From assembly GCA_016938135.1 (NCBI GenBank), contig JAFGVD010000021.1, forward strand, positions 1 to 33,579: a stretch of DNA of 33,579 bases. Direction: 5' to 3'. Origin of the DNA: Coriobacteriia bacterium (GTDB lineage Bacteria > Actinomycetota > Coriobacteriia > Anaerosomatales > Anaerosomataceae). Positions 2,044 to 33,579 of the stretch are shown in pieces. A program made the translations under genes and the position numbers. The notes beneath the pieces were generated by a model that made no database searches, had not been told where the DNA came from, and saw nothing but the letters and a program-made list of their open reading frames with translations. Position 1 is the first letter of the stretch, and every line of letters starts with the position of its first letter.

Positions 2044-4575
2044 GTGGCACGTTCGTACGAACCGCATGACATAGAAGTTAAGTGGCAGTCGGTCTGGGAT
2101 GCCGAGGGACTCTATAAAGTCTCCGAAGACCCAGCCAGGCCCAAGAAGTATGTGCTCGAGATGTTTCCCTATCCTTCCGGGGACATCCACATGGGTCATG
2201 TGCGCAACTATTCGATCGGTGACGTGATCGCGCGTTACTGGACGATGCGCGGCACCAATGTGCTGCATCCCATCGGCTGGGACTCTTTTGGCTTGCCTGC
2301 AGAGAACGCCGCTATCAAGAGCGACTCGCACCCAGCCACCTGGACGTACGCCAATATCGAGAAGCAGGCGGCATCGTTTCGCCGCATGGGCTTCAGCTAC
2401 GACTGGGACCGCCGCCTGGCCAGCAGCGATGAGGAGTACTACCGCTGGGGCCAGTGGATATTCATCAAGTTCTGGGAGCGCGGGCTGGTGGAACGCAAGA
2501 GCTCACCGGTCAACTGGTGTCCCTCGTGCATGACCGTTCTGGCCAACGAACAGGTCATCGGAGACGGAGTGTGCTGGCGCTGCAAGAGCGTGGTCCAGAA
2601 GCGCGAGCTGGAGCAGTGGTACTTCAAGATCACCGAATATGCCCAGGAGTTGCTGGACGATCTGGACGAGCTTCCGGGCTGGCCGGAGCGCGTCAAAGCG
2701 ATGCAGGCCAACTGGATCGGGCGCAGCGAAGGCGCCGAGGTCGACTTCAAGCTCTGTGACGCCTCAGGTGAGCCTACCGACGAGACCATCACCGTCTTCA
2801 CCACGCGTCCCGATACGTTGTTCGGCTGCTCGTTCTTCCTGTTGGCACCGGAGCATCCGCTGGTCGCCAGACTGGTGGAGGGCACCGAGTACGCCCCGAG
2901 CGTCAACGAGGTCGTGGCGGGAGCCGCCAAAGAGACCGCGATCGACCGCTCGTCTACCGACAAAGAGAAGAACGGCGCCTTCATCGGCCGCTGTGTGGTC
3001 AATCCCGTCAATGGCGAGAAAGTGCCCGTCTGGGTGGCTGACTACGTGCTCATGGAGTACGGCACAGGCGCGGTCATGGCGGTACCCTGCGGTGACCAGC
3101 GTGACTTCGAGTTCGCCCGCAAGTACGGTCTGCCCATCCCGCCGGTCGTGGTGCCGGCCGACGATCCCCTCTACGAGCAGTTGAAAGACCAGACCGAGCG
3201 CGTCGTGACCGATGTCGATTGGGACGTCGCGCACGCCGATGAGGGCATCATGGTGCAGTCCGGTCAGTTCACGGGCACGCCGACGGGCAAGCACGGCGAG
3301 GGCGTCACAAAGGTGATCGCATGGCTGGAGGAGCGCGGCCAGGGCCACGCATCCATCAACTTCCGTTTGCGCGACTGGCTCATTTCCCGGCAGCGCTACT
3401 GGGGCAACCCGATACCTGCCATCCACTGCCCGTCATGCGGCCTGGTGCCGGTTCCTGAGGCCGACCTGCCCGTTGTCTTGCCTGCAGATGTAGACGTGAC
3501 CAAGGGCGAGACGCTTGCGGACCATCCTGAGTTCTACGAGACCACCTGTCCTGCATGCGGGGGAGCCGCCCGTCGGGAGACCGACACGATGGACACGTTC
3601 ACGTGTTCCAGCTGGTACTACCTGCGCTACTGTGACGCACGCAATGACGCGGCGATATGGGACAAGGACAAGGCAGACTACTGGATGCCGGTGGATCAGT
3701 ACATCGGCGGTATCGAACACGCCATCTTGCACCTGCTTTACTCGCGCTTCTTCACCAAGGTGTTCCGCGACATGGACCTGGTGGACTTCGCCGAGCCATT
3801 TACCAACCTGCTCACCCAGGGGATGGTCAAGCTCGACGGCGCCACGATGAGCAAGTCGCGCGGCAACGTCGTGGCGCCCGAGGACATGATCGCTCGCTAC
3901 GGTGCGGACGCTTTGCGTGCCTACATCCTGTTCATGGCGCCACCGGACAAAGACCTCGAGTGGAGCCAGGACGGTCTGGACGGCATGTACCGCTTCCTGG
4001 GACGGGTATGGCGCTACGTCACAGAGGTGGCCGAGGAGCCCGTGTCCGACTCGCCTGCAACCGATGCCGAGCCGGCCAAGGTGCTTCGTCGTGAACGACA
4101 TCGTGTCGTGGGCAAGGTCGAAGACGACATCGAGCGCTTCCAGTTCAACACGGCTCTTTCGGCCATGATGGAGCTGCTCAACGCTGCCACCGACTATCGA
4201 CGGACCGTGCCCGAAGAGAACCGCGACGTCTCGCTTGAGCGGGAGGTCGCAACCACGCTCGTGCTGCTGCTGGCGCCGTATGTGCCGCACATGGCCGAGG
4301 AACTGTGGCGCGAGGTCCTGGGTGTTCAGACCTCTGTGCATCGGGCCGAGTGGCCCGTGTGGGATCCAATGGCAGCTGCGGCCGATGAGGTGGAGATGGC
4401 GGTGCAGGTGAACGGTAAGGTCCGCGCGCGCCTTGTGGTTGATGCGGGCGCATCGGAAGATACCGTGCGTGAACTGGCGCTTGCCCTTCCCAAGGTCGCC
4501 GAGCATACCGAGGGTCTTACGGTTCGAAAGGTGCTCGTGGTTCCCCGCAAGCTCGTTAGTATCGTGGCCAACTGA
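2044..4575 (+). CDS. leuS: Leucyl-tRNA synthetase
   Basis: LeuRS, a class Ia enzyme, charges tRNA-Leu with leucine in the cytoplasm. The product is 843 residues, the usual bacterial size. The HIGH motif appears as HMGH (residues 49-52) after FPYPSGDI, and KMSKS as TMSKS (601-605). A Cys4 zinc knuckle (CPSC...CWRC) is followed by the CP1 editing domain with TTRPDTLFG and YGTGAVMAVP. A second pair of knuckles (CPSCG, CPACGG) precedes the catalytic core's second half, and a C-terminal anticodon-binding and LeuRS tail (VQVNGKVRARL) closes it. GTG at 2044 is chosen because GGAGG (2034-2038) sits 5 nt before it; the ATG at 2032 would swallow that site. A weak promoter (TTTCGG, 17 nt, TATCAT at 2002-2007) may precede it. 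There is no T-box in the 78-nt leader. Confidence 0.97.
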   Translation: MARSYEPHDIEVKWQSVWDAEGLYKVSEDPARPKKYVLEMFPYPSGDIHMGHVRNYSIGDVIARYWTMRGTNVLHPIGWDSFGLPAENAAIKSDSHPATWTYANIEKQAASFRRMGFSYDWDRRLASSDEEYYRWGQWIFIKFWERGLVERKSSPVNWCPSCMTVLANEQVIGDGVCWRCKSVVQKRELEQWYFKITEYAQELLDDLDELPGWPERVKAMQANWIGRSEGAEVDFKLCDASGEPTDETITVFTTRPDTLFGCSFFLLAPEHPLVARLVEGTEYAPSVNEVVAGAAKETAIDRSSTDKEKNGAFIGRCVVNPVNGEKVPVWVADYVLMEYGTGAVMAVPCGDQRDFEFARKYGLPIPPVVVPADDPLYEQLKDQTERVVTDVDWDVAHADEGIMVQSGQFTGTPTGKHGEGVTKVIAWLEERGQGHASINFRLRDWLISRQRYWGNPIPAIHCPSCGLVPVPEADLPVVLPADVDVTKGETLADHPEFYETTCPACGGAARRETDTMDTFTCSSWYYLRYCDARNDAAIWDKDKADYWMPVDQYIGGIEHAILHLLYSRFFTKVFRDMDLVDFAEPFTNLLTQGMVKLDGATMSKSRGNVVAPEDMIARYGADALRAYILFMAPPDKDLEWSQDGLDGMYRFLGRVWRYVTEVAEEPVSDSPATDAEPAKVLRRERHRVVGKVEDDIERFQFNTALSAMMELLNAATDYRRTVPEENRDVSLEREVATTLVLLLAPYVPHMAEELWREVLGVQTSVHRAEWPVWDPMAAAADEVEMAVQVNGKVRARLVVDAGASEDTVRELALALPKVAEHTEGLTVRKVLVVPRKLVSIVAN

Positions 4576-32126: not shown

Positions 32127-33218
32127 GTGGAGATCATGACTCGCGAGGAGTATGAGGCCGAAGAGCACCGGCTGCTCTCGCCCCGGGCGGCTTTCTCCGA
32201 TGCATCTCGTGGCCGCGAGCGACCGATGGAGCCGGATCCTTTGCGCAGCGAGTTCCAGCGCGATCGGGACCGAATCATCCACTGCAAGGCGTTTCGGCGT
32301 CTATCCCACAAGACCCAGGTGTTTCTGGCGCCGGAGGGCGATCACTATCGTACCCGCTTGACCCATACGCTTGAGGTTGCCCAGATTGCGCGTTCTATCG
32401 CACGTGCGCTGCGTCTCAATGAGGACCTTACCGAGGCTGTAGCGCTGGGGCACGACTTGGGGCATACGCCCTTCGGACACATCGGCGAAGACGCCCTCAA
32501 CGACTGCCTAGCGCAAGTACGCGACGATTACCCCAGCGCGCGGTACCCGTTCCGCCACAATCTTCAGTCTTTGCGCCTTGTGGAGGAGCTGGAGTATGAC
32601 GGCAAAGGACTCAACCTCACCTGGGAGGTGCGCGACGGGATTCATCACCACACAGGATCCGGGCGCGCGTCTACGCTTGAGGGCCAGATCGTCGCTATCG
32701 CCGATCGCATCGCGTATGTGAACCACGACATCGACGATGCGATTCGTGGGGGAGTGCTCACAGAGGCCGATCTGCCGCTTGCCCCCACTGACGTGCTGGG
32801 TCACGCCCACGGCGCGCGCATCACTACGATGGTGCAGGACATGGTATCCAGCTCGCTCGATTCCGAGACGATCCGCATGAGTGAGGCCGTCTGGAAGGCG
32901 ATGATGGACCTCCGCTCGTTCCTTTTTGCCCACGTGTATCTGAGCGAATCGGCCAAGGCCGAGGAGCCCAAGGCGTATCGGATCGTCCAGACCCTGTTCT
33001 GGCACTTCCTTGAGCATCCCGAGGATATGTACTCCGAAGCCGGCAACGCGGCTCCCGCCCAGGCTGCACCCGCCCAGGCTGTACCCGCACGAGCCACGCT
33101 ACTCCCTGACGAAGCCGACCTTCCTGATCGCGTTACGGACTACATCGCCGGAATGACCGACCGCTTCGCCATCCGCACCTACGAGAAGCTCTTCTTGCCG
33201 AAGAGCTGGATGGTGTAA
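32127..33218 (+). CDS. dgt: Deoxyguanosinetriphosphate triphosphohydrolase-like HD protein
   Basis: dGTPases cleave dNTPs to the deoxynucleoside and tripolyphosphate, tuning dNTP pools. The product is 363 residues. Motifs are DPLRSEFQRDRDRIIHCKAFRRLSHKTQVF (quoted from residues 37-66 in part: RRLSHKTQVF), RTRLTHTLEVAQIARSIAR with H80, ALGHDLGHTPFGHIGE with H109-D110, H113 and H118, and NHDIDDAIRGG carrying the last metal Asp. The GTG at 32127 has AGGGGG 6 nt upstream. Near the C-terminus a 15-bp duplication encodes an Ala/Pro-rich insert. In Firmicutes-like clusters dgt precedes dnaG-rpoD; here the following DNA is a repeat array. Confidence 0.93.
   Translation: MEIMTREEYEAEEHRLLSPRAAFSDASRGRERPMEPDPLRSEFQRDRDRIIHCKAFRRLSHKTQVFLAPEGDHYRTRLTHTLEVAQIARSIARALRLNEDLTEAVALGHDLGHTPFGHIGEDALNDCLAQVRDDYPSARYPFRHNLQSLRLVEELEYDGKGLNLTWEVRDGIHHHTGSGRASTLEGQIVAIADRIAYVNHDIDDAIRGGVLTEADLPLAPTDVLGHAHGARITTMVQDMVSSSLDSETIRMSEAVWKAMMDLRSFLFAHVYLSESAKAEEPKAYRIVQTLFWHFLEHPEDMYSEAGNAAPAQAAPAQAVPARATLLPDEADLPDRVTDYIAGMTDRFAIRTYEKLFLPKSWMV
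33054..33083 (+). repeat. 15-bp tandem duplication inside dgt
   Basis: CCCGCCCAGGCTGCA (33054-33068) is followed directly by CCCGCCCAGGCTGTA (33069-33083), differing at one base, and by a partial third copy starting CCCGCAC. In frame it encodes APAQA, APAQA and VPARA, an Ala/Pro spacer near the C-terminus of the dGTPase. The unit is a multiple of three, so copy number could vary without a frameshift. Confidence 0.8.
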
Positions 33219-33309
33219 GTCGTAGGTCGGATTCTGATGCGATCCCGGAAAGTCCGCGGTGATACAGTCATTGCCCGAGGGCCGGTTACCGTATCCCCAT
33301 TAGTGCTTC

Positions 33310-33465
33310 ATTGATGATGGTCAATCGAGACACCTGATCATCGATGGCACTCGATGGCCGTATCGATGAGGGTCGATCGAGATGCCCACCGATTGATTGC
33401 GGTCAATGGGCTCAGTGATGAGCATCGCTCGGCGCACCTGCTCATCGATGCGTGTCAATCAAGAC
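33310..33465. repeat. Array of six palindromic 16-mers in three 52-bp units
   Basis: Six copies of the form ATYGA-N6-TCRAT start at 33310, 33340, 33362, 33392, 33414 and 33444, so the steps are 30, 22, 30, 22 and 30. Four copies are perfect 5-bp inverted repeats (ATTGA/TCAAT twice, ATCGA/TCGAT twice), so arm changes occur in pairs. Copy five (AGTGA/TCGCT) has one G-T style pair and copy six (ATCGA/TCAAT) one mismatch. The odd copies share a following CGAGA-like tail. The 52-bp period is close to five helical turns. Confidence 0.85.
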
Positions 33466-33531
33466 GCAAGGTGGGCCCCCTCCCTTACAAGGTCAGGATC
33501 TACCTGTTGGAACAAGCGGACTTGAAGATGA

Positions 33532-33579
33532 GCACGGGGTGAAAGGGTGCACGGGGGTGAAATGGTGCACGGGGTGAAA
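33532..33579. repeat. Short tandem repeat at the right edge of the window
   Basis: GCACGGGGTGAAAGGGT (33532-33548), GCACGGGGGTGAAATGGT (33549-33566) and GCACGGGGTGAAA (33567-33579, cut by the window end) are near-identical head-to-tail copies of 17-18 bp. They could be a minisatellite or the repeated inner end of an insertion sequence such as an IS21-like element; the window stops before this can be told. Confidence 0.75.

Follow-up and report, generated by a model that had tools for sequence, protein, structure and literature searches.

A phased six-dyad array beside dgt as a probable autoregulatory operator region of an ArsR-like gene in Coriobacteriia

The window, meaning the whole stretch of 33,579 nucleotides that was analysed, is contig C46 of a Coriobacteriia genome of 2.13 Mb in 49 contigs (G000). 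Towards its end, the dGTP triphosphohydrolase gene dgt is followed by six dyads of the form ATYGA-N6-TCRAT and by a tandem repeat at the contig end. The features are listed below, with window coordinates unless another contig or locus is named.

32127-33218, plus strand: dgt, dGTP triphosphohydrolase (NF002327, E 1.4e-143), upstream neighbour of the array
33310-33459, plus strand: whole array, putative operator region of an arsR-like gene that starts just past the window end
33310-33325, no strand: dyad 1, ATTGA-TGATGG-TCAAT, exact, 30 bp to dyad 2
33340-33355, no strand: dyad 2, ATCGA-TGGCAC-TCGAT, exact, 22 bp to dyad 3
33362-33377, no strand: dyad 3, ATCGA-TGAGGG-TCGAT, exact, 30 bp to dyad 4
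33392-33407, no strand: dyad 4, ATTGA-TTGCGG-TCAAT, exact, 22 bp to dyad 5
33414-33429, no strand: dyad 5, degenerate, AGTGA-TGAGCA-TCGCT, two mismatches
33444-33459, no strand: dyad 6, ATCGA-TGCGTG-TCAAT, exact pattern, arms unmatched at base 3
33532-33579, plus strand: 17-18 bp tandem repeat at the contig end, with 26 bp (100%) common to the end of contig C11
G000:C11:88684-88965, minus strand: arsR-like gene, 93 aa, HTH_5 domain
G001 locus L034: array 3592-3667, arsR 3753-4025, hppA 4211; order same as in G000

The C-terminal part of dgt carries a 15-bp in-frame repeat at 33054-33088, encoding an Ala-Pro-Ala-Gln-rich insert.

A sequence-only reading of this stretch had described six 16-mers at alternating steps of 30 and 22 bp. 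The spacing is exact along 33310-33459 (30/22/30/22/30 bp), while the claim that all six copies match had to be corrected, as five of the six dyads match ATYGAN6TCRAT exactly and dyad 5 (AGTGATGAGCATCGCT) carries two mismatches. The motif is neither equally frequent nor unspaced across the genome. Pattern searches of the 2.13 Mb found eight exact dyads, of which five belong to the array, and exact dyad pairs with a gap of 0-30 bp occur only there. In 20,000 Markov-1 simulations of the 361-bp tail, no simulated sequence contained a pair at 22 or 30 bp or more than one dyad. Neither a sigma-70 promoter nor a terminator was found in 33000-33579.

The proposal that the two arms change together did not survive a permutation test. 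The third base is the same in both arms in 4 of 8 dyads from the two arrays of G000, which is the level expected by chance (p 0.76). In G001, a Coriobacteriia metagenome-assembled genome and the sole other genome of the genus returned by the searches (contig JAUSOQ010000049.1), this base is almost always C in both arms (p 1.0). The third arm base is a degenerate position (Y) and not a covarying pair. The evidence for dyad symmetry comes from the four remaining arm bases and from the comparison across genomes. These results also bear on a chain of RNA hairpins, be it a small RNA or part of the arsR leader, which the sequence-only reading had considered a poorer fit. A folding z of -2.3 speaks for such a structure, but the arms are only 5 bp long and AU-rich, their changes are not compensatory and no Rfam family matches. 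Moreover, the pairing in the best fold is between different arms, which any palindromic DNA would show. The hairpin chain was rejected and is regarded as extremely unlikely.

The assembly breaks between the array and the arsR-like gene, inside the tandem repeat at 33532-33579. The terminal 26 bases of the window are found a second time at the end of contig C11. Read outward from this end, C11 carries a 93-aa ORF of the ArsR family preceded by a Shine-Dalgarno-like GGGAGG, followed by hppA, dnaG, two rpoD-type genes, tRNA-Asn and tRNA-Met. Counting the 26-bp overlap once, the ATG of arsR lies about 12 bp beyond position 33579 and about 131 bp from the array. The array and arsR are thus on separate contigs in G000, and their join is based on the 26-bp repeat and on synteny. 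In G001, a single contig carries dgt, an acyltransferase-like fragment, three dyads with steps of 30/30, arsR and hppA, and its ArsR-like protein is 52-56% identical to that of G000. Since the arsR gene of C11 adjoins the 26-bp repeat and G001 has the same order on one contig, the array can be assigned to the region upstream of arsR. The expectation that dnaG and rpoD follow dgt was nearly right, with arsR and hppA placed between dgt and dnaG, and two rpoD-type genes after it. The tandem of these two sigma factor genes 3' of dnaG is shared by both species of the genus (L035 2005-4409). Intergenic tandem repeats of 8-18 bp adjoin several dyad arrays (window 33532-33579, L034 3330-3487 and L066 2256-2311).

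The protein encoded next to the array matches the Pfam domain HTH_5 with E-values of 1.6e-9 in G000 and 1.4e-12 in G001, and its nearest solved relatives are SmtB and CzrA. It scores 52.4 bits against NF033788 (metalloregulator ArsR/SmtB), below the cut-off of 55, with the SdpR autorepressor model second, and it reaches the cut-off of no equivalog. Judged by these matches, the product belongs to the ArsR family, and membership in a metal-sensing group is predicted at most. When aligned to arsenic-type ArsR proteins of other loci, the CxC position is SxC in the G000 protein and GxC in that of G001; the G030 protein has no cysteine at this place, both being absent. Sensing of arsenite or other metals via the CxC site is unlikely because this site is incomplete. 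The recognition-helix region, SQGT[VM]SYH, matches the SQPTVSHH type of other dyad-linked ArsR proteins. No arsenic resistance genes were found near the array, where the downstream genes are hppA, dnaG and rpoD. An arsenic regulon was rejected on the grounds of the incomplete CxC and the absence of arsenic genes from the operon. In the assembly of G011, the arsR frame appears shifted near its start (L275 8621-8760).

The dgt locus was read in 46 genomes besides G000, and dgt and hppA adjoin in most of the order. An ArsR-like gene lies 3' of dgt in seven genomes from four genera and two families (G000, G001, G008, G011, G023, G026 and G030). Dyads stand in front of this gene in all seven, those of G030 and of genus g8 having been found with a wider pattern that was picked after viewing these dyads. 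Among the 34 genomes that have dgt and hppA with no ArsR gene between them, none has a dyad in the dgt-hppA interval. The single dyad of G032 is located inside dgt and falls outside this interval count. Fisher's test of gene against dyads gives about 4e-8 (the reciprocal of the number of possible choices of 7 from 41), a value uncorrected for relatedness.

The arrangement of the dyads is also conserved. G011 has six dyads with steps of 31/22/97/22/31, and G030 has six with steps of 31/22/339/22/31 and weaker arms (TTCGA, TTTCA, CTCGA). The outer steps are therefore kept in other genera and do not drift, while the middle interval, 30 bp between dyads 3 and 4 in the window, is 97 and 339 bp, respectively. 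Since only the middle step changes and the four outer ones are kept, the unit is a three-dyad group that is present twice. The earlier description as three tandem units of 52 bp was rejected for this reason, and two groups of three dyads are the better description. In genus g8, each group consists of one 16-mer dyad and a longer dyad (ATYGACAC-N5-GTGTCGAT-like), and the 16-mer dyads are 165-190 bp apart. The 22-bp step is not obligatory, because the array at arsR in G001 has steps of 30/30.

A scan of 84,980 genomes for the exact dyad-N14-dyad pattern found at least 80 loci. Of the 80 listed, 15 are 10-bp tandem repeats of the ATCGATTGCT type, which were set aside as unrelated to the dyad array. 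At 27 of the 65 non-tandem loci among the matches listed, the dyads overlap or abut an ArsR gene. The ArsR-linked loci listed span Actinomycetota, Cyanobacteria, Spirochaetes, Bacilli and others, and the genes beside them are arsenic genes, namely ArsP, ACR3-type SBF, a low-molecular-weight phosphatase (ArsC), MIP, a methyltransferase and ArsA. In an independent sample, 77 of 396 Actinomycetota genomes contained a dyad pair with a gap of 0-30 bp, versus one for a reversed control pattern. An ArsR domain lies within about 300 bp of the dyads at 29 of 30 fetched Actinomycetota loci, and within 200 bp at 26, where random positions at the same 30 loci would give 6.6. In all 29 linked loci the dyads are upstream of the ArsR gene. 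Thus, although the sequence-only reading recognised no described family, the dyad recurs at ArsR genes, and ATYGA-N6-TCRAT is, to judge from these positions, a predicted ArsR-type operator across Actinomycetota and other phyla. The exact phasing is not general for such operators, since the steps at the fetched loci are mostly 30-38 bp. Some AT-rich contigs of metagenome-assembled genomes (L096 and L167; 19-20% GC) contain many ATTGA-N6-TCAAT dyads that are unlinked to ArsR genes.

The array is very probably the autoregulatory operator region of a winged-helix dimer of the ArsR/SmtB family, encoded by a gene that begins about 130 bp downstream and is followed by hppA. Like ArsR/SmtB operators, it consists of 5-N6-5 dyads in which about one turn separates the half-sites, it lies upstream of an ArsR-family gene (across the contig join, and on a single contig in G001), and its dyad sequence is the same as at independent ArsR genes. 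The earlier suggestion of an operator array bound cooperatively by a dimer is well supported by the adjoining gene, by the co-occurrence at the dgt locus and by the 29 of 30 loci, and a family can now be named, with binding itself as the expected property. Whether hppA is included is less clear. A promoter-like element (TTGTTGCC, then TAGAAT or a variant) is kept in front of hppA whether arsR is there or not, and where arsR is present it is located downstream of that gene; hppA may thus be independent of the array. Control of hppA by the array is a possible, candidate role.

ArsR operators usually consist of one or two dyads. Those of arsenic operons in Actinomycetota and other phyla share the ATYGA-N6-TCRAT dyad directly upstream of the ArsR gene, but they usually have two dyads at a 30-38 bp step, whereas the array has six with steps of 22 and 30 bp. 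Unlike the regulators of these operons, the ArsR-like protein of the array has no CxC, and its gene is adjoined by hppA and dnaG instead of arsenic genes. The SmtB, CzrA and SdpR groups have the HTH_5 domain in common with it, but it lacks a complete metal site. In Synechocystis, the ArsR core is given as ATCAA(N)6TTGAT in two 17-bp direct repeats, a consensus that also appears in PMC9137774. This promoter resembles the array in its tandem 5-N6-5 dyads at an ArsR-controlled promoter and differs in having two copies only, with arms of the opposite polarity (ATCAA/TTGAT versus ATTGA/TCAAT). The array therefore does not match this consensus, one of several in the family, in its arms (ATYGA/TCRAT), but has the same geometry. 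Rv2034 of M. tuberculosis is an ArsR-like autorepressor that also acts on other promoters (PMC3338718). Like the proposed regulator of the array, it represses its own gene, but its site is one palindrome (CCGTAAGT, 4-bp spacer) and not an array of six dyads. A six-dyad ArsR array was not found in the open-access literature searched.

Further copies of the array must be considered for its interpretation. Counting the one at arsR, there are two arrays in G000 and six in G001. The second pair of G000 lies between the divergent tRNA-Asn and tRNA-Met genes, and G001 has a pair at the same place. In G001, glyQ, ppdK and a galE/wecB cluster each have an array upstream as well, and a further one lies between convergent MqsA-like and GNAT genes. 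Such copies at tRNA, ppdK and glyQ promoters, together with the regular phasing and the proximity of dnaG and rpoD, could point to sites of another dimeric protein acting in nucleoid organisation, partition or replication. However, no Rep- or ParAB-type gene is among the neighbours read, the arrays are few and local, and the link to ArsR genes is strong. The iteron-like or nucleoid-organising site suggested earlier is thus very improbable.

The blocks of G001 contigs C19 and C20 are near-identical (L067 237-304 and L068 1785-1852) and adjoin MqsA, GNAT/Phd and AbiE genes. They stand where a polysaccharide cluster ends, and of the MqsA-like genes beside them one seems to be a truncated remnant. 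In G011, three-dyad blocks, one of them double, lie 50-220 bp upstream of sugar transferase, AbiEi, MqsA and related toxin-antitoxin genes. A region of its contig C8 (L302 29234-40281) contains near-identical blocks with common flanks between toxin-antitoxin units (AbiEi/AbiEii, MqsA and Fic). The blocks at 34020, 38201, 38982 and 40213 lie between AbiEi/AbiEii and MqsA units, and this order, like the near-identity of the G001 blocks, is reminiscent of recombination or cassette sites such as attC between integron cassettes. Against this, inspection of the G011 blocks showed no attC-type core, the blocks also stand at the distances from gene starts given above, and the sites at arsR, tRNA and ppdK genes are not cassettes. 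We give this explanation a very small chance.

Several copies in G001 and G011 have common 5' flanks and form near-identical blocks, and short tandem repeats are abundant in the intergenic regions of these genomes. Both observations would suit a repeat of the REP, BIME or MITE-like type that is dispersed over intergenic regions by copying, has no protein partner of its own and lies near arsR by chance. Nevertheless, across the order blocks occur at the dgt locus only where arsR is present, arms and steps are kept although the spacers vary, and the same dyads accompany ArsR genes in unrelated phyla. A dispersed repeat is therefore improbable, if somewhat less so than the two preceding explanations. 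The blocks may still have spread by copying, as they share flanks.

Given the operator reading, the extra blocks at toxin-antitoxin and polysaccharide genes in two relatives hint at a wider regulon. It is conceivable, though on balance doubtful, that the ArsR-like protein without a metal site is a multi-target regulator in the order, repressing itself via the six-dyad array and controlling toxin-antitoxin and surface-polysaccharide genes through three-dyad blocks (31/22 or 30/22), similar to a silencer of variable islands.

As for the mechanism at the array, we infer that one dimer would bind directly to each ATYGA-N6-TCRAT dyad, with half-sites 11 bp, or about one helical turn, apart. Because the 22- and 30-bp steps correspond to about 2.1 and 2.9 turns, neighbouring dimers would sit on roughly one face of the helix, so that several could bind next to each other. 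These dimers would cooperate in repressing the promoter of the regulator's own gene and would be released from the DNA by a signal.

If this is true, the assembly of small winged-helix dimers on one face of DNA could be studied in a simple system, a conserved six-dyad array with fixed steps of 30/31 and 22 bp and a variable middle gap. It would also be a case of an ArsR protein put to use without a metal site. The blocks beside toxin-antitoxin and polysaccharide genes suggest that its regulon may be wider, which is testable.
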